NCBI GenBank assembly: GCA_013041925.1
Contig: JABDRB010000013.1
Location: 1-64,000 of the forward strand
DNA length: 64,000 nucleotides
Origin: Akkermansiaceae bacterium
GTDB taxonomy: Bacteria > Verrucomicrobiota > Verrucomicrobiia > Verrucomicrobiales > Akkermansiaceae
Reading direction: 5' to 3'
Shown here: positions 5,712 to 33,418 of the stretch, in pieces
Position numbering within the stretch: the first letter of the stretch is position 1
Layout: each line of letters begins with the position of its first letter
Program-made: the position numbers and the translations under genes
Notes under the pieces: model-generated
What the model was told of the DNA's origin: nothing
The model's database searches: none
What the model saw: only the letters and a program-made list of their open reading frames with translations

Positions 5712-6761
5712 CTACTTCCGTCGACGAACGCCAAGAAAGGCAAGTCCAGCCATAAGACCCAGAAGAGAAACACCAGGCTCAGGGACATTTGCGTATAAGT
5801 CAGAACCTTGGTAACCATCCATCGTAAAGTAAAATTCTGTTCCTGATTCGAAGTTCCCTCCTCCATTTCGGGTGATAACAACTGTAGCCGTTTGCGCCAC
5901 TAATTGTTCGTGATCCGAAACAATTCCATTAGATAGTTCAGCTATACTAATATTTGATCCGTCACCGTTTTGAGTATCAGGGTCGACCGTTTCTGATGCT
6001 GGGAGGGTGCCTGTCAAAAGATAACGCTTCAGACCGATGAAGTTTTCATTTGTACCTCCAATACGATTGCCGACATTAGTAACCGATAAGTTAATTGTTT
6101 CACCGATTTCTGATAAAGTTCCCAAACCATTAAAGATGGTGGAATCTGACACAGTTCCATTAATGCCGCTCGTCAAATTATAGCTTGCGTCGAGTGTTGA
6201 AATATTAGAGAGGGTAAGATTAAAATCGGCATTTGTAGGACTACTTGCTTTACTCGCAGACAATAGCCAAGGGTAATACGCTGACCAATTGCCGGTGATG
6301 TTGTGTGTGTCTCTTGCGTGCAAGGGAGATGAGAAATCCACTTGCAACGTAATAGAGGAGGTGTTTGCGTCGAGCAATTCAATCACTTGCCTACCAACTG
6401 CAGCATTGCTGCCATCCACGCCGCCAGTGACACTCAGGTTTGCAGAACCACTACCTGCAAGGGTGTAGGTGCTGGTTAATGTCATATCAGGATCAAAAAG
6501 TGACTCAGCATTATCGGATTCAAGATTATTCATAGTGAGGACACCTGTACCTGAAAAACCGCTGATCAATACGGGGCCTGAGCCAATGTTTGTAGCGTCA
6601 ACATCATTGATGGTGCCATCTCCACTCCACGAACCCCCACTCGTGAATGTGCCCGAAGTCCCTGAATCAATCAAAGATTTAATGGCCGCAGAAGAAGGGC
6701 TAATTAACGAAGGTATCGCTAAAATACAGGCAAGTTTAGTTAGGGATTTATGGCTTTTCAT
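5712..6761 (-). CDS. PEP-CTERM sorting domain protein
   Basis: A secreted surface or matrix protein of unknown function, about 349 residues from the Met of MKSHKSLTK, which opens a signal peptide ending near SPSSAA. The middle is Ser/Thr/Asn/Gly-rich and beta-like. The C-terminus has a VPEP motif, a hydrophobic helix (SLLGLMAGLAFLGV) and a final RRRK, the classic exosortase-recognised signal. Base use is more A+T-rich than in flanking genes. No exosortase gene lies in the window. Confidence 0.8.
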   Translation of the reverse strand: MKSHKSLTKLACILAIPSLISPSSAAIKSLIDSGTSGTFTSGGSWSGDGTINDVDATNIGSGPVLISGFSGTGVLTMNNLESDNAESLFDPDMTLTSTYTLAGSGSANLSVTGGVDGSNAAVGRQVIELLDANTSSITLQVDFSSPLHARDTHNITGNWSAYYPWLLSASKASSPTNADFNLTLSNISTLDASYNLTSGINGTVSDSTIFNGLGTLSEIGETINLSVTNVGNRIGGTNENFIGLKRYLLTGTLPASETVDPDTQNGDGSNISIAELSNGIVSDHEQLVAQTATVVITRNGGGNFESGTEFYFTMDGYQGSDLYANVPEPGVSLLGLMAGLAFLGVRRRK

Positions 6762-24866: not shown

Positions 24867-25133
24867 TTAGTGGCTGAGGACTTCCTGAAGTTTCCAACAC
24901 TTCTTCTTGGAGATGGGCTTGGTCTCGATGATGCTGACTTTGTCGCCAACGGCGGCTTTTCCTTCTTCATCGTGTGCATAGAACTTCTTGGAACGCTTAA
25001 TGATTTTCTTAAAGCGTGGGTGTGGGACACGGTTGGTGTATTCGACAACGATGGTTTTATCCATGGATGTGGAGATAACAATGCCGACGCGGGTCTTGCG
25101 CAGACCAGCTGTTTTGGTTTCAGATTCGCTCAT
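24867..25133 (-). CDS. rpsQ: 30S ribosomal protein S17
   Basis: An 88-residue OB-fold protein. A short acidic lead (MSESETKTAG) precedes the S17 body LRKTRVGIVISTSMDKTIVVEYTNRVPHPRFKKII, and KFYAHDEEGKAAVGDKVSIIETKPISKKKCWKL. It is followed by an 86-nt spacer before rplN. Confidence 0.96.
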   Translation of the reverse strand: MSESETKTAGLRKTRVGIVISTSMDKTIVVEYTNRVPHPRFKKIIKRSKKFYAHDEEGKAAVGDKVSIIETKPISKKKCWKLQEVLSH

Positions 25134-25172
25134 GATAATGTGATTTTGTTGGTTGAGTTCGCTTAGCCAGGA

Positions 25173-25376
25173 TTACCCGTTGAGGCGACGCTGAGTCAGG
25201 ATGGTTTGCACGCGTGCCACCTCCTTGCGGACGAGGGTGCGGCGTGATGTATTTTCCAGCTGACCGGTAGCCTGCTGGAGACGCAGGTTGAGTGCCTCTT
25301 GTTTGAGGTCACGCAGGCGGCTGGTGAGCTCATCTGTCGTGAGCTCGCGGATTTCTGTGATTTTTGTCTGGGCCAT
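25173..25376 (-). CDS. rpmC: 50S ribosomal protein L29
   Basis: A 67-residue two-helix protein at the exit tunnel rim. [49 protein letters not shown] is the L29 consensus. It sits between rplP and rpsQ, as is standard. Confidence 0.96.
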
Positions 25377-25411
25377 GGCTTAACAATATTGAATTTTGAT
25401 GGTTGAATTCT

Positions 25412-25831
25412 TTAACCGTGGTTTCCACGGACGATGAAGCGGGTGGGGACACCAAGCTTGTAGGACGCGAGGCGGAGTGCCTCTTTTGCGGCTGTCTCGG
25501 AGACACCGGCTACCTCGAAAAGCATGGTTCCAGGGCGGATCACGGCGACCCACGCTTCGACGGCACCTTTACCTTTACCCATCCGGGTTTCTGGTGGGCG
25601 ACCTGTGATGGACTTGTGAGGGAAGACGCGGATCCAAACTTTTCCTTTACGTTTAAGTTGGCGGTTGATGGCGACACGGCAGGCTTCGATTTGACGGTTG
25701 GTCATCCATCCGCGTCCGAGGCACTGAAGGCCAAAGTCACCGAAACTCACTGTATTACCACGCTGGGCGTTACCACCGCGGTTTCCACGCTGAGTCTTAC
25801 GGAACTTCACTCTTTTGGGCATTAATGGCAT
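25412..25831 (-). CDS. rplP: 50S ribosomal protein L16
   Basis: A 139-residue protein at the A-site side of the 50S. It begins [16 protein letters not shown] and shows [30 protein letters not shown] and [34 protein letters not shown]. Normal length. Confidence 0.97.
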
Positions 25832-25909
25832 ATGATTATCCTCCTAGTTAGGTTTGTTGATTAATTAAGTGCTATGATCTGTGCCGACGTGGGGTCGGCA
25901 CATCGGGTC

Positions 25910-26611
25910 TTAGCGATTGTTGTTGTTGCGGTCGTTGCGGTCGCGACGTTGGCCACCACGGGGACGGCCACCACCTTGTTGTTCTTTCTCTTCCTTTTTG
26001 TTGATCCAGCACTTAACGCCGATGATTCCGTAAACGGTTGCGGCTTCAGCGAATCCGTAGTCGATAGGAACACGCAGTGTTTGAAGTGGCACTTTGCCTT
26101 CGCGATACCACTCGTTACGTGCGATATCTGCACCACCGAGACGACCCCCGCAACGAACACGGATGCCTTCGGCTCCGAACTCCATGGCGGTAGCGACGGC
26201 GCGCTTCATGGCGCGGCGGAATGCAATACGACGTTCAAGCTGCACGGCAATGTTTTCAGCGACAAGCTGAGCATCGAGTTCAGGCTTACGGATCTCGAGG
26301 ATATCGATTTTGACCTGACAACCTCCACAGAGCTGGGAGATCTCGTTCGTCATTCTTTCAATCTCAGAACCTTTGCGGCCGATCACGAGACCGGGGCGCG
26401 CGGTAGAAAGGGTGACGCGGACGCTATTCCAAGCACGTTCGATGATGACTTTGGAGATGCCTGAGTTGTGGAGACGTTTTTTGATATACTTACGGATTTT
26501 AAGATCCTCATGAAGTTTATCGGTGTAGTCGTTTCCAGTGGCATACCACTTAGAGCGCCAGTCTTTGGAGACGGCGAGACGGAAAGAGATCGGATTGATT
26601 TTCTGGCCCAT
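25910..26611 (-). CDS. rpsC: 30S ribosomal protein S3 with Arg/Gly/Asn-rich tail
   Basis: S3 lines the mRNA entry tunnel. The 233-residue protein begins [24 protein letters not shown], has the KH domain ([16 protein letters not shown]) and the C-terminal [40 protein letters not shown]. The last 21 residues are a basic low-complexity tail ([20 protein letters not shown]). Tails in S3 vary between phyla; here it matches in style the RG-rich N-terminus of S5. Confidence 0.97.
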
Positions 26612-26638
26612 GGTGTAGTGTTTTTTTTAAAAGTTATA

Positions 26639-27160
26639 TTACTCGGAATCGGAAGCTTTATCTTCAGCTGGGGCCGCATCTTCAGCAGCAGCCTCGGCTT
26701 TTACTTCTTCGACCTCTTCGGGAGCTTCCTCCTTTTTCTCTGGCTTCGGTGCGGCCGCCTTCTTGGGCTTGGAAACGATGGTGCGTTTCTTTGGCTTGGA
26801 TGAGCGCTCGCGTGGCTCGGGAATTTCAGTTTCGTCGGTGAGGACGATGTAGAGGTGGCTGGTGCGTTTACGGATGGCACTTGCGGACCCGCGGGCACGT
26901 GGCTTGAATCGCTTGAAGGTAGGTCCGTCACCGACGGTTGCCTCCTTGACGGTCAAGTCGTCGGCGATCAATTCGTGATTATTCTCGGCATTGGCAACCG
27001 CGCTCTTCAGCGTCTTACCGACGAGCTGGGCAGCTTTGCGAGGTGTATAAGCAAGGGCATCAAGGGCGTCTGAAACAGGCATGCCTTGAATGGCGCGGGC
27101 AACATCACGGGCCTTCTTAGGCGAGATGCGGGCGTATTTGTAAGTGGATTTAACTTCCAT
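26639..27160 (-). CDS. rplV: 50S ribosomal protein L22 with charged C-terminal extension
   Basis: L22 lines the exit tunnel. The first 110 residues are standard (KYARISPKKARDVARAIQGMPV, KRFKPRARGSASAIRKRTSHLYIVLTD). About 63 residues follow, a Lys/Pro-rich then Glu/Ala-rich run ending AEDKASDSE, making 173 residues against a usual 110-120. It lies 27 nt after the unusual 27188-27940 gene. Confidence 0.95.
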   Translation of the reverse strand: MEVKSTYKYARISPKKARDVARAIQGMPVSDALDALAYTPRKAAQLVGKTLKSAVANAENNHELIADDLTVKEATVGDGPTFKRFKPRARGSASAIRKRTSHLYIVLTDETEIPEPRERSSKPKKRTIVSKPKKAAAPKPEKKEEAPEEVEEVKAEAAAEDAAPAEDKASDSE

Positions 27161-27187
27161 CGGTCTAGTGGGTAAAAATTGAGTTGT

Positions 27188-27940
27188 TTATCGTTGTGTT
27201 ATCTGAACGGATGCGATGTCGCCGGTGCGGATCTGATCCTTGGAGTTGTCGAGGTCTGTTGGCAGCACGCCGCTGAAATCCTTGCGGGTTTCTGCGACAA
27301 TCGCTTCGGCCACCTTGCGGTTGCCACGCGTGATGGCAAAAGTCATCCCGCGTCGGACGGATTGATTTTCACCTGCATTGATAACCAGCATGCCGCTTTC
27401 GGCGTCGATACTGACAATCTTTGCGTGTTGCAGACTGCCTTGGGCAATGTGCGGGCGCGGGTTCTGCCTTAATCTGAGGGCTACGTCAAGCTCTCGTATT
27501 GAAGTTTCCAAACGAAGTCGTGCATCGGGGTCCGCTGCGATGGCCGTGCGTAGATATTCACGCATGTTGACCATCAGCTTCAGAGCCGCTGTTTCGGTAG
27601 CACGGTTCCGTTTATCAAGGACTTCAGCATTCTTAATGGCATCCAGAATCGCATCTTGGCCGCCATTGAGAAGGTTGTCTCCCAGTGCGGCAAACCGAAG
27701 TCGGAGCTCATTGAGGCTCTTCTTCATCGCGGCTTCGCGCATCTTGGAGGCAGCGAGGTCACGAGCCAGTGCTTGGTATTGGCCTTGGGATTTTTGGAGC
27801 TGAAGCTCGAGTCGGCGAACCTCGCGACCCTTGTCTCCATCTGCCCCATTCTGGGCAGCGCACGGGACCACCGATACAGCCTGGGCACCGATGAGTAATA
27901 CTCCGGCGAAGGCTGAGGTGATATGTGCGTTGATCTGCAT
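27188..27940 (-). CDS. Predicted secreted coiled-coil protein inside the S10 operon
   Basis: Not a ribosomal protein and not recognised as a named family. The 250-residue product has an N-terminal signal-peptide-like segment (HITSAFAGVLLIGAQAVSVVPCAAQ). A heptad-like coiled coil follows from about residue 38 to 85 (VRRLELQLQKSQGQYQALARDL), then a helical middle. A compact C-terminal beta domain (KIVSIDAESGMLVINAGENQSVRRGMTFAI, later IRTGDIASVQI) is of a type I associate with envelope proteins of this phylum. It sits between rpsS (88 nt upstream) and rplV (27 nt downstream), co-directional, so it is probably co-transcribed with ribosomal genes. Confidence 0.75.
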   Translation of the reverse strand: MQINAHITSAFAGVLLIGAQAVSVVPCAAQNGADGDKGREVRRLELQLQKSQGQYQALARDLAASKMREAAMKKSLNELRLRFAALGDNLLNGGQDAILDAIKNAEVLDKRNRATETAALKLMVNMREYLRTAIAADPDARLRLETSIRELDVALRLRQNPRPHIAQGSLQHAKIVSIDAESGMLVINAGENQSVRRGMTFAITRGNRKVAEAIVAETRKDFSGVLPTDLDNSKDQIRTGDIASVQITQR

Positions 27941-28028
27941 AGAAAGAGGAGAGATTGACAGGGTGAACGAAGTGTGGGCTGTGGTGGTTGGGTCGATGGC
28001 GTCGCTGTCGTGGACAGCGACGGATCAA

Positions 28029-28298
28029 TTACCTTTTACCAATGCCGCCGTGTGCTTTGAAGATACGTGTTGGTGAAAATTCACCCAGCTTGTGGCCAAC
28101 CATGTTCTCGTTCACGTAAACCGTCGGGAATGACTTGCCGTTGTGGACGTGGAATGTGTGGCCAACGAAGTCAGGAGTGATAACCGAGTTACGGCTCCAT
28201 GTCTTGATGGGTTTTTTGTCGTTGTTGGCTTCGGCAGCATCGATTTTTGCGAGCAGCTTTTGGTCAACGTAGGCACCTTTTTTGAGTGATCTTGGCAT
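28029..28298 (-). CDS. rpsS: 30S ribosomal protein S19
   Basis: An 89-residue protein at the 30S head. [73 protein letters not shown] is the S19 consensus. It follows rplB by 36 nt. Confidence 0.97.
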
Positions 28299-28334
28299 GA
28301 GATTTAGAATTAGTGGTTTAAAATGATGGCTTCC

Positions 28335-29174
28335 TTACTTTTTCTTACGTCGTGAAACAATAAGTTTGTTACTGGACTTGTATTTCTTACGAGTCTTCTG
28401 ACCCTTGACGTGACCCCAAGGTGATTTGAGGTGTTGGCGACCACCACCGGACTTGGACTTACCCTCACCACCACCATTCGGGTGATCGACGGGGTTCATA
28501 CACATTCCGCGGACGGTTGGGCGGATACCCTTCCAGCGACTACGTCCAGCTTTCGCGGAAACCTCGTTCATGTGATCGCGGTTGCCAACTTGGCCGATAG
28601 TGCAGTAGCAGTTCTGGTTGAATTTGCGGATTTCACCGGATGGCATCTTGACGAGTGCCTGACCACCTTCCTCACGGTTAGAGAGGATAGCTTGCTGACC
28701 AGCTGATCGGGCGATTTTACCACCTGTTCCTGGGGTCATTTCAATGTTGTGAATGGCCGTTCCAAGTGGGACGCTCTTGAGGGTCATCGCGTTTCCTGGC
28801 TTAGGAGGAGCGGATTCGCTCGAGATGACGGTAGCGCCAACCTCCAAACCAACGGGGGCGAGGATGTAGCTCTTTACACCGTCTTCATACTGGATGAGGG
28901 CGATGCGGCAGGTGCGGTTGGGATCATACTCGATGCTGAGTACGGATGCGGGCACGTCCATCTTGTTGCGTTTGAAATCAACGAGACGGTATTTGCGTTT
29001 GTGTCCACCTCCTTTGTGACGGCAGGTGATACGGCCCTGATTGTTGCGTCCACCGCTTTTTTTGATTGGGCGGGTGAGGCTTTTTTCAGGATTGGTTTTG
29101 GTAATTTCCTCGTAACTTGGCCACTCTTTGTAGCGGTTTGATGGAGTTACGGGTTTAAATGTTTTTAAAGGCAT
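28335..29174 (-). CDS. rplB: 50S ribosomal protein L2
   Basis: A 279-residue protein needed for subunit joining and peptidyl-transferase structure. It has [26 protein letters not shown], the [25 protein letters not shown] core and the invariant region [24 protein letters not shown] with its conserved histidine. Length is normal. Confidence 0.97.
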
Positions 29175-29235
29175 GATTCGCTATTGGGTTCGATGTGATC
29201 GTTTTTCAGCGGGATAGATTACTGAGTGTCCTGGC

Positions 29236-29520
29236 TTAGACGAGGTCAAGTGACTCGCCATCCTTGAGGCGGACGACGGCTTTTTTCCAGTGTGCGGTGC
29301 GGCCAGCGTCGGCGCGTCGATTGCGCTTTTTCTTGCCCTGACAGTTCATGGTGCGGACGGTATCAACCTTCTTGCCGAAGAGTTGTTCGATAGCACGCTT
29401 GATTTCGAGTTTATTGGCATTGCGATCCACCTTGAACACGTATTCGTTGTTCTCCTCCTGAAGGAGGGTGGCTTTCTCACTGATGAGAACGGTATCGATG
29501 ACCTGATAGATGTCTTTCAT
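29236..29520 (-). CDS. rplW: 50S ribosomal protein L23
   Basis: A 94-residue exit-site protein that docks SRP and trigger factor. YQVIDTVLISEKATLLQEENNEYVFKVDRNANKLEIKRAIEQLFGKKVDTVRTMNCQGK fits L23. It sits between rplD and rplB. Confidence 0.95.
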   Translation of the reverse strand: MKDIYQVIDTVLISEKATLLQEENNEYVFKVDRNANKLEIKRAIEQLFGKKVDTVRTMNCQGKKKRNRRADAGRTAHWKKAVVRLKDGESLDLV

Positions 29521-29553
29521 GGTTACGAGTAGATAAATGGTTGAGGCTACGGA

Positions 29554-30159
29554 TTAAGCAGTGCGGCGAGCGAGGGTCTCGTAGGAGTCCTCCACAAGAA
29601 TAACAGTGTTGGCGTGCAGAAGTTGTTCGATGTTGACTTCAGATGCTGTCATCAGCAGAACGTTTTGCACGTTGCGACCGGCGAGGTAGGTCTTTTCCTC
29701 GAAGCTCTCAGCGACCACAAGCACCTTGCGGGAGTCGGTGAGGGCCTTGATGGCTGCGACAAATGACTTGGTCTTACCGTCGGCGACAGCGAAGCTAGGC
29801 ACTGCGATGATGGAATCTGAAACGATGAGGTCACCGAGGACTTTACGCAGCGCGAGCTTGCGCGTCCCCTTGTTGACGGTCTTCGAGTAATCACGTGGGC
29901 GGGGACCGAAAACGATACCACCACCACGCCAGATTGGGTTTTTGGTGGTGCCTGCTCGGGCGCGGCCGGTGCCTTTTTGTTTCCAGAGTTTTTTATTGGA
30001 ACCCTTCACTTCACCGCGTGTTTTGGTGCATGCGGTGCCGCTACGGCGGTTTGCACGGTAGGCGGTGACGAGGTCGTGCACAGCTTGGTCGCCCTTGTGA
30101 CCTTCGATCACCTGGATGTTGGCTGCTTGCGCATCTTGGATAGAGAGTGTTTTAGACAT
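29554..30159 (-). CDS. rplD: 50S ribosomal protein L4
   Basis: A 201-residue exit-tunnel protein. The tunnel loop region is clear: [63 protein letters not shown]. In E. coli L4 is the autogenous regulator of the S10 operon; no such leader structure can be claimed here. Normal length. Confidence 0.96.
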
Positions 30160-30205
30160 GGTATAAAGTAGCTAGTAGTTAATAGGTAAAAGTAGTTCGC
30201 TCTCT

Positions 30206-30862
30206 CTACTTGGCAGCAGGTGCTGCCTTTTTAATCGCGGGGCGAATGACAACGTAACCACCATTGGGGCCGGGGACGGCTCCGGAGACGAGGACGACGT
30301 TGTCTTCAGGGCGAACCTGAACGACTTTAAGGTTTTGAACGGTGCGGTTGTAGACACCGTGACGACCTGGCATCTTCTTGTTTTTCCAAATACGACCAGG
30401 CCATGTTCCGGCTCCGACACCACCAGGGCGACGGTGCATCATGTGACCGTGGGAGTCAGGCTGACCAGCGAAGTTGTAACGCTTAACAACACCTTGAAAG
30501 CCTTTACCTTTGGTTGTTCCGATCACATCGATCCACTGACCGGCCTCAAAGAGAGACGCGCCTGGGTGATCGGCCTTGGTGTCGGGTAATCCGGCATCGC
30601 TATCGAAACGAAACTCTTTAACGAGCTTTTTCGGGGAGCCTCCGTATTTCTTGAAGTGACCGCGCTTCGGGAGGTTGAGGCGGAATTCCTTCTGGTCGCC
30701 ATAACCAACCTGAACAGCGGAATATCCGTCTGTTTCGGTGGTTTTGACTTGGAGAAACTCGTTGTCTGCAACGTCTACGACGGTGACAGGGATAGATGTG
30801 CCAGCTTCGGCATCAAAGATGCGAGTCATACCGACTTTTTTTCCTAGTAGTCCTAGTGCCAT
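30206..30862 (-). CDS. rplC: 50S ribosomal protein L3
   Basis: A 218-residue protein near the peptidyl-transferase centre. It begins MALGLLGKKVGMTRIFD and holds the L3 signature VIGTTKGKGFQGVVKRYNFAGQPDSHGHMMHRRPGGVG, PGRIWKNKKMPGRHG. It follows rpsJ by 47 nt. Confidence 0.97.
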   Translation of the reverse strand: MALGLLGKKVGMTRIFDAEAGTSIPVTVVDVADNEFLQVKTTETDGYSAVQVGYGDQKEFRLNLPKRGHFKKYGGSPKKLVKEFRFDSDAGLPDTKADHPGASLFEAGQWIDVIGTTKGKGFQGVVKRYNFAGQPDSHGHMMHRRPGGVGAGTWPGRIWKNKKMPGRHGVYNRTVQNLKVVQVRPEDNVVLVSGAVPGPNGGYVVIRPAIKKAAPAAK

Positions 30863-30909
30863 GGTTCTTAGTAGTTTAAATGGTTAGATGATGAGGTTAT
30901 GCCTTGGGG

Positions 30910-31218
30910 TCAGATGCGGATTGCGATATCAACACCTGCGGGGAGGTTAAGCTTCTTAAGTTCGTCCACGGTGCGTGCTGTGGGGTCAACGATATCGAGC
31001 ATCCGTTTGTGGGTGCGGATTTCAAACTGCTCAGCTGACTTCTTATTCTGGTTAACGGAACGGTTCACACTGAACTTCTCAATGCGGGTAGGCAATGGGA
31101 TGGGACCGGCGATTTTTGCTCCTGTACGTTTCGCTGTCTCAACGATTTCCTGAGCGGACTTGTCGATGGCGCGGTGATCGTATGCACGGAGGCGGATTCT
31201 TATTTTCTGCTGTTGCAT
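30910..31218 (-). CDS. rpsJ: 30S ribosomal protein S10
   Basis: A 102-residue protein with a second role in antitermination as NusE in other bacteria. [40 protein letters not shown] and [38 protein letters not shown] are typical. It follows fusA by 46 nt; tuf, usual between them, is missing. Confidence 0.97.
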
Positions 31219-31264
31219 GTCGGTTTTAGTTAGATTGTTTGAGGATGGTTAGTGAGTCTGATGA

Positions 31265-33418
31265 TTAGCTTGCGTATGCGTATTCATTGGTGAGTTCGTC
31301 CACAATATTCTGTGGGACTTGCTCGAAACTTGATGGCTTCATGGTGTAGTCGGCGCGGCCGCTGGAGAGCGTCCTGACGGCGGTGGAGTAACCGAACATC
31401 TGAGCCAAGGGGACGAGTGCCTTGAGGACAGCGTGTCTTGGTTTATTTTCGATCTCTTGGATCTGGCCGCGGCGGCGGTTGAGGTCGCCCATGATATCCC
31501 CTTGATAATCTTCAGGGGTAACAATTTCGACATCCATGACGGGTTCAAGCAGGATGGGTCCTGCATTTTTGAAGGCGTCCCTCATGGCGAGGATGGCTGC
31601 CATTTTGAAAGCGTTTTCGTTGGAATCGACGTCGTGATAGGATCCGTCGGTAATGTTGACGTGGACATCGACCACTGGGTATCCAGCGACGATACCATTG
31701 GTCATGGATAGTCGAACACCAGCCAGAACAGAGTTGATAAATTCTTTAGGGATGGCGCCGCCAACAACGAGGTTATCAATGGTGAGCCCCTTGCCTTTTG
31801 TGCCTGGGGCGACATCGAGCACAACGTGTCCAAATTGGCCACGGCCACCGGATTGTTTTTTGAGGATTCCTTCACCACCAGATGCTATGGTGATCGTTTC
31901 GCGATAAGCGATCTGGGGTTTGCCGACGCCACAGGCGACTTTAAATTCACGCATCATACGATCCACGATGACCTCGAGGTGAAGCTCACCCATACCGGAG
32001 ATGATGGTCTGTCCTGTTTCCTCATCGGTTTTCACCATGAAGGTGGGATCTTCCTCTGAAAGGCGAGCGAGGGCGATGGCCATCTTCTCCTGATCAACCA
32101 CGGTCTTTGGCTCGACGGCCATGGAGATGACGGGCTCAGGGAAGAGTGGGGGCTCGAGCATGATATCGAATTGCTCGGTGCAGAGAGTGTCGCCGGTCTT
32201 TACGTTTTTGAGTCCCACGATGGCGGCAATGTCACCTGAGTAACAGGTTTCAATGTCCTCGTGTTTATCGGCGTGCATCTTAATCAGGCGACCGATGCGC
32301 TCTTTCTTACGGGTGCGCGGGTTGTAGACCATGTCCCCTTTGGAGACGGTGCCTGAGTAGACACGGAAGAAAATAAGTTTGCCGACATACTTATCGGCCC
32401 AAAGTTTGAATGCGAGCGAACAGAACTTTTTATGATCGTCGGTTTCGGCAAGCACCTGAGCTTCATCATCATCGGCCTCCTGCCCTTGGGCAGCGGGGAT
32501 GTCGACGGGGCTTGGGAGGTAGTCAACCACGGCATCGACAAGGAACTGGACCCCTTTGTTTTTAAAGGCAGAACCACCGGCGACGGGGACCACCTGATTG
32601 GCGATTGTAGCACGGCGGAGTGCCATCTTAATATCGGTGGTGGTAATTTCCTCTTCCATGAGGAATTTCTCACCGAGTTCGTCATCGCTATCGCAAAGGA
32701 CGGCAAGTAGCTCCTCGCGGGCTGATTCAGCTTCGGCAAGGAGGTCGCCCTCGAGATCCTTGATTTCGAATGTCGACCCCATGGTGTTATCATCCTTATA
32801 GATGACAGCCTTCAGGTTGATTACGTCGATCTGGCCGATGAGATCTTCCTCGGCACCGATCGGGATGAGAATACGGACGGCGTTGATACCAAACCTATCC
32901 TTAACCTCTTGGAAAACGTTTTCAAAATTGGCTCCTGTGCGATCCATCTTATTGATAAAGATGATGCGCGGAACGTTATACTTATCAGCTTGGCGCCAGA
33001 CGGTTTCCGTCTGTGGCTGCACGCCGGCGACACCACAGAAAAGAACAATAGCACCATCGAGCACACGCAGCGAGCGCTCGACCTCGGCCGTGAAGTCGAC
33101 GTGACCCGGGGTATCAATAATATTGATGCGCTGCTTCTGTTTCTCGTAGAGCTTAACCACGCCATCGCTCGGGTGCTGCACCCATTCGCAGGTAACGGCA
33201 GCGGAGGTAATGGTGATGCCACGCTCACGCTCTTGCTCCATATGATCTGTGACCGTAGCGCCGTCATGCACCTCCCCGATTCGATGAATCATTCCGGTAT
33301 AGAAAAGAATACGCTCGGTGAGCGTCGTCTTACCGGCGTCGATGTGCGCAGCAATCCCAATATTCCGCGTCCGTTCCAGGAGGTATGGACGTTTTGGATG
33401 ATTAGGATTCTCAGACAT
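31265..33418 (-). CDS. fusA: Elongation factor G (str-operon copy)
   Basis: A translocation GTPase of 717 residues. G1 is GIAAHIDAGKTTLTERILF, the switch region RGITITSAA, G3 DTPGHVDF and G4 NKMD. Domain III/IV landmarks include GMGELHLEVIVDRMMREF and AGVRLSMTNGIVAGYPVVDV, and domain [15 protein letters not shown]. Its place between rpsG and rpsJ marks it as the canonical copy. A second EF-G lies at 35223-37349 on the other strand. Confidence 0.96.
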   Translation of the reverse strand: MSENPNHPKRPYLLERTRNIGIAAHIDAGKTTLTERILFYTGMIHRIGEVHDGATVTDHMEQERERGITITSAAVTCEWVQHPSDGVVKLYEKQKQRINIIDTPGHVDFTAEVERSLRVLDGAIVLFCGVAGVQPQTETVWRQADKYNVPRIIFINKMDRTGANFENVFQEVKDRFGINAVRILIPIGAEEDLIGQIDVINLKAVIYKDDNTMGSTFEIKDLEGDLLAEAESAREELLAVLCDSDDELGEKFLMEEEITTTDIKMALRRATIANQVVPVAGGSAFKNKGVQFLVDAVVDYLPSPVDIPAAQGQEADDDEAQVLAETDDHKKFCSLAFKLWADKYVGKLIFFRVYSGTVSKGDMVYNPRTRKKERIGRLIKMHADKHEDIETCYSGDIAAIVGLKNVKTGDTLCTEQFDIMLEPPLFPEPVISMAVEPKTVVDQEKMAIALARLSEEDPTFMVKTDEETGQTIISGMGELHLEVIVDRMMREFKVACGVGKPQIAYRETITIASGGEGILKKQSGGRGQFGHVVLDVAPGTKGKGLTIDNLVVGGAIPKEFINSVLAGVRLSMTNGIVAGYPVVDVHVNITDGSYHDVDSNENAFKMAAILAMRDAFKNAGPILLEPVMDVEIVTPEDYQGDIMGDLNRRRGQIQEIENKPRHAVLKALVPLAQMFGYSTAVRTLSSGRADYTMKPSSFEQVPQNIVDELTNEYAYAS

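Follow-up and report, generated by a model that had tools for sequence, protein, structure and literature searches.

The window analysed was a 64,000-nucleotide stretch of Akkermansiaceae bacterium DNA (phylum Verrucomicrobiota; GCA_013041925.1, contig JABDRB010000013.1, positions 1 to 64,000). An open reading frame of 250 codons, here termed X, was located on the minus strand between the ribosomal protein genes rpsS and rplV, with its ATG at 27940 and its stop codon ending at 27188. It is separated from rpsS by 88 nt and from rplV by 27 nt, all three genes lie on the same strand, and the gene order on the minus strand is rplB-rpsS-X-rplV-rpsC-rplP, which is canonical for the S10 operon apart from X. 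The original prediction had described a secreted coiled-coil protein gene at this position with these spacings, without giving the strand, and this observation was confirmed. X is single copy in its genome. The features of the locus are as follows.

28335..29174, minus strand: rplB, S10 operon context upstream of rpsS
28029..28298, minus strand: rpsS (S19), upstream neighbour, 88 nt from X
27188..27940, minus strand: gene X, 250-aa exported-type protein with a signal-like N-terminus (residues 1-31), coiled-coil helices (36-154) and a C-terminal small beta-barrel (173-245), as predicted
27848..27940, minus strand: part of X coding for the signal-peptide-like N-terminus (residues 1-31)
27200..27430, minus strand: part of X coding for the C-terminal beta-barrel, the constant core of the family (about residues 171-247)
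26639..27160, minus strand: rplV (L22), downstream neighbour, 27 nt from X, with which X usually stays when the operon is split
25910..26611, minus strand: rpsC, S10 operon context downstream of rplV

The rplV gene was seen to carry lineage-specific C-terminal extensions, with an acidic/lysine-rich tail in the window (26639-27160, minus strand) and, in locus L002 (JALZUH010000197.1, Akkermansiaceae bacterium; 5769-6479, plus strand), a longer tail whose end looks like a helix-hairpin-helix-type domain.

Distribution, inheritance and selection

Loci (L), genomes (G), contigs (C), families (f) and genera (g) are given by working numbers where they must be told apart. X was found in 233 of 260 genomes of the family and in 166 of 172 good ones, and all 31 loci examined had X between rpsS and rplV on the same strand. 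A profile search of genomes drawn from the order gave matches in 138 of 142. In 40 order-level loci covering six families X directly preceded rplV; rpsS was seen upstream in 38 of these, and no rpsS was seen in the stretch examined for L066 and L067. Over both sets, X therefore lay directly upstream of rplV in 71 of 71 loci, with rpsS on the other side in 69. At class level, a broader profile matched 148 of 188 genomes, but some of these matches are weak paralogues and the number is not a count of X in the operon. Of 40 class-level loci, 36 had the match between rpsS and rplV, and the other four (L121, L122, L124 and L125) showed no S10 genes or matches to paralogues elsewhere. In families f13, f17, f39, f44, f47 and f50 the gene is only about 108-130 codons long and comprises a signal-like N-terminus and the beta domain, with no coiled coil; comparison of the short-form profile with the long-form profile (hhalign) gave 98.6% over 79 columns of the barrel.

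Outside the class, X-like genes were found between rpsS and rplV in families f60, f62, f67, f70, f72, f79, f85, f87, f88 and f90, and the profile of 13 of them compared with the class profile gave 99.7%. In many other genomes outside the class the S10 operon is broken exactly between rpsS and rplV, itself an unusual breakpoint, and an X-like gene lies directly upstream of rplV at the second site in most of the loci read for this purpose and also in L129, L133 and L136. Pairing profile hits with rplV positions and the inspected loci gave about 37 such genomes (counted by hand), and comparison of this group with the class profile gave 98.9% (E 1e-17). As a less biased census, the distance between rpsS and rplV was measured in the 124 genomes of one phylum draw in which both genes were listed. 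In the family and order, 22 of 22 genomes had a gap of 745-871 nt; in the rest of the class, 20 had gaps of 337-985 nt, 18 were tight and 1 was intermediate; in the rest of the phylum, 13 had gaps of 574-1134 nt, 14 were tight, 1 was intermediate and 35 were not linked. X is therefore ancestral at least to the order, probably older, and has been lost repeatedly: f12, many f17, f59, f66 and other families have rpsS and rplV tightly adjacent. The 0.9 Mb genomes of genus g61 (G375 and G383) gave no profile match, whereas the 2.5 Mb member G440 of the same genus has X; the rpsS-rplV gaps of the two small genomes (172 and 337 nt) may hold remnants.

In genus g157, 15 genomes carry an X-like gene, which is not next to rplV in the 13 whose rplV was located. 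Five of these loci were read, and in three of them X directly follows an AcrB-family RND-transporter gene (Pfam checked for two of the three). In some operon-split genomes (L133 at 1262-2458, L225 and L226) TatA/TatC-like genes lie directly upstream of the X-rplV segment, and TatA and TatC were confirmed by Pfam in L133.

Vertical inheritance was assessed with Mantel tests over 139 loci. Distances between X proteins tracked those of rpsC (r 0.77) and rplV (r 0.71) as well as rplV tracked rpsC (r 0.70), and 0 of 500 permutations were as high. Within the genus, median dN/dS was 0.14 for X against 0.02-0.04 for four ribosomal genes. X is thus under purifying selection, but it is not constrained like a ribosomal protein.

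Predicted protein and expression signals

Structure prediction with AlphaFold2 using 53 sequences gave a mean pLDDT of 85.8, with helices at residues 36-90, 95-131 and 138-154 and a confident beta-barrel at 173-245. The architecture given in the original prediction (signal-like start, coiled coil, C-terminal beta domain) therefore holds for this protein, although the coiled coil is not essential to the family. In structure comparison the predicted barrel resembled that of FlgT (3w1e, Z 10.6, 77 residues, rmsd 2.0; chain 0 of the LPHT ring 8z5n, Z 11.2; 74-77 residues and rmsd about 2 overall) and, slightly less, the N-terminal barrels of F1-ATPase subunits (Z about 9.5). This is a shared fold that does not point to one function, and the helical part was hardly covered by the fold search. 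Foldseek also returned MreC structures, to which the fit was poorer than to FlgT.

Sequence searches against Pfam, NCBIfam and PDB gave only coiled-coil noise and weak MreC matches; no Pfam or NCBIfam model covers X, and no ribosomal protein model matched over a cut-off. The NCBIfam MreC model NF010532 scored 14.6 bits against a cut-off of 243, PF04085 was not among the Pfam hits, and a bona fide MreC was found elsewhere in the genome (C15, 132 bits). Paralogues with a similar plan exist in the same genome, where two tandem genes for membrane-anchored coiled-coil proteins on C17 (L251, 8734-9558 and 9624-10430) lie between an ABC-transporter-like gene and a primase-like gene; the first matched the X beta-domain profile weakly, and no Pfam family was found over its cut-off.

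A simple hydropathy rule was passed by the N-termini of 90% of 142 X proteins, compared with 32% of 238 ORFs of the own genome. The rule is crude, and start codons of X were chosen with some bias towards signal-like starts. Signal-like N-termini were also present in the forms of about 110-130 aa. Anchor types appear to differ, being cleavable-signal-like in most, lipobox-like in L135 and L137 and transmembrane-anchor-like in L130 and L141. If this is right, what selection keeps is export rather than one anchoring mode.

Gaps flanking X were operon-like, with medians of 23 nt (upstream, 123 loci) and 21 nt (downstream, 142 loci). Two conditions had been set beforehand as grounds for rejecting the operon reading, namely absence of X from close relatives with signs of recent insertion, and a promoter and terminator of its own; neither was fulfilled. 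X is present in relatives as described above, a simple scan of 25000-31300 found no minus-strand promoter-like site, and the only minus-strand terminator-like site lies inside the X coding sequence. No Shine-Dalgarno-like sequence was evident before X or rplV in this genus (window 27161-27187 and 11 genus loci), while the X stop and the bases before rplV are well conserved. Codon adaptation of X to ribosomal genes was 0.540, the 44th percentile of 238 genes, while 15 neighbours, each tested with itself left out, lay at the 79th-100th percentile. Shared transcription is thus likely on indirect evidence, and X is probably translated less than its neighbours even on a shared mRNA. At the X-rplV junction, 11 base pairs were predicted, none with a two-sided compensatory change, and no Rfam match was found.

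Literature searches on rpsS/rplV in Verrucomicrobia, S10-operon gene order and Akkermansia proteome and essential genes found no description of this gene in the open-access papers searched, with subscription papers and supplements outside their reach. The gene is not mentioned in the passages searched of the main text on the essential genome of Verrucomicrobium spinosum, a member of the phylum in which transposon-insertion sequencing (TraDIS) was done (PMC12283558). One paper lists Amuc_0296-0297, Amuc_0301 and Amuc_0304 as ribosomal genes.

Interpretation and known systems

The interpretation in the original prediction, that co-transcription would tie expression of an envelope protein to ribosome synthesis, was only partly supported. 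An export-type coiled-coil and beta-domain protein gene does sit inside the S10 operon and is not part of the standard operon, whereas the link to ribosome synthesis remains an inference. The explanation preferred here, held to be about as likely as not, is that X is an ancestral, vertically inherited, non-ribosomal member of the S10 operon in Verrucomicrobiota. The conserved position immediately upstream of rplV, the export-type N-terminus with its apparent variation in anchor type between lineages and the conserved small C-terminal beta-barrel are established from sequence. It is inferred that X is transcribed on the S10 mRNA, so that its dose would rise with ribosome synthesis and growth rate at lower protein output than that of the ribosomal proteins; that the product crosses or inserts into the inner membrane; that it oligomerises or extends through its coiled coil where one is present; and that the barrel is used as a protein-protein docking module, as in FlgT and MreC. 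In this view X would act in trans as a membrane-associated periplasmic scaffold or adaptor that keeps envelope assembly in step with growth. Ordinary codon adaptation weakens any claim of high, ribosome-like output, and the repeated losses and the sharing of the barrel with F1-ATPases also count against this reading.

The alternatives were each considered unlikely. A role mainly in cis, as a SecM-like export sensor or a membrane-targeting reading frame whose translation or export controls rplV translation or tethers the S10 mRNA to the membrane, is attractive because X usually stays directly upstream of rplV even when the operon breaks at rpsS, the stop-to-start distance is short, codon adaptation is low, and an export signal is nearly universal while the coiled coil is not. 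It is disfavoured because the beta domain is conserved while the last residues, where an arrest motif would lie, vary in sequence and length, because the junction shows no covarying RNA structure, and because X persists away from rplV in g157, which a purely cis role does not predict and which argues for a protein acting in trans rather than a leader of rplV. A diverged MreC paralogue working in the cell-elongation machinery, considered equally doubtful, is supported by the shared order of membrane signal, coiled coil and beta domain, by the weak NCBIfam MreC matches of a few members and by the Foldseek hits. Against it stand the separate MreC of the genome, the scores far below cut-off, the single barrel where MreC has two, the better fit of FlgT and the short forms without a coiled coil.

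Slightly less likely still is a periplasmic partner of an efflux or transport complex (RND or Tat related) that happens to ride on the S10 operon. The RND and TatA/TatC neighbours speak for it, but these occur in only a few genomes of one family and differ between them, and elsewhere X sits in the S10 operon with no transport gene next to it. A cytosolic ribosome-associated factor whose hydrophobic N-terminus is not an export signal is supported by location alone and is very unlikely, given the signal-like N-termini across 142 loci, the lipobox-like versions and an evolutionary rate several times that of ribosomal proteins. Recent insertion, mis-assembly or a spurious ORF is excluded by the occurrence of the same gene in the same place in many independent assemblies of several classes and by purifying selection; no evidence in its favour was found.

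The S10 operon is one of the best conserved gene clusters in bacteria, and rpsS-rplV is one of its tightest neighbour pairs. An unnamed, export-type protein embedded there on a phylum scale is unexpected. The finding gives an uncharacterised conserved family a location and a testable hypothesis, that envelope supply is tied to ribosome supply through a shared mRNA. X is also a possible taxonomic marker for a phylum with unusual cell biology and a medically interesting member, Akkermansia. Genetic tools exist in the phylum. A broader reading, held to be less likely than not, is that X is an ancestral device of the phylum linking cell-envelope construction to ribosome synthesis, an exported barrel protein built into the S10 operon before the phylum diversified, kept in front of rplV even when the operon broke apart, and lost only in some lineages.

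Compared with the canonical S10 operon (rpsJ-rplC-rplD-rplW-rplB-rpsS-rplV-rpsC-rplP-rpmC-rpsQ), gene order and strand around X are the same, and the difference is an extra, non-ribosomal gene for an export-type protein between rpsS and rplV, where no such member is known in the standard operon. A precedent for an envelope/export gene inside a ribosomal-protein operon is secY in the spc operon, but SecY is universal and integral to the membrane, whereas X is limited to part of one phylum as far as tested and has a periplasmic-type barrel. The PVC signature protein (CT421.2-like, PMC3444138) is likewise an uncharacterised protein, proposed as a marker of the PVC group, but is about 53 to more than 80 aa long, while X is 110-400 aa with a signal and a barrel. 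MreC shares the membrane signal, coiled coil and beta domain with weak profile and fold similarity, and differs in the points given above. SecM-type arrest peptides are also exported proteins encoded directly upstream of another gene; X has no conserved C-terminal arrest motif, has a conserved folded domain and is kept when unlinked. FlgT, the periplasmic Vibrio flagellar H-ring protein, has a C-terminal small beta-barrel on which the predicted barrel of X superposes, at only about 9-10% identity, while the rest of X is predicted to be helical, with a coiled coil in place of the other FlgT domains, and its gene neighbourhood is ribosomal rather than flagellar.
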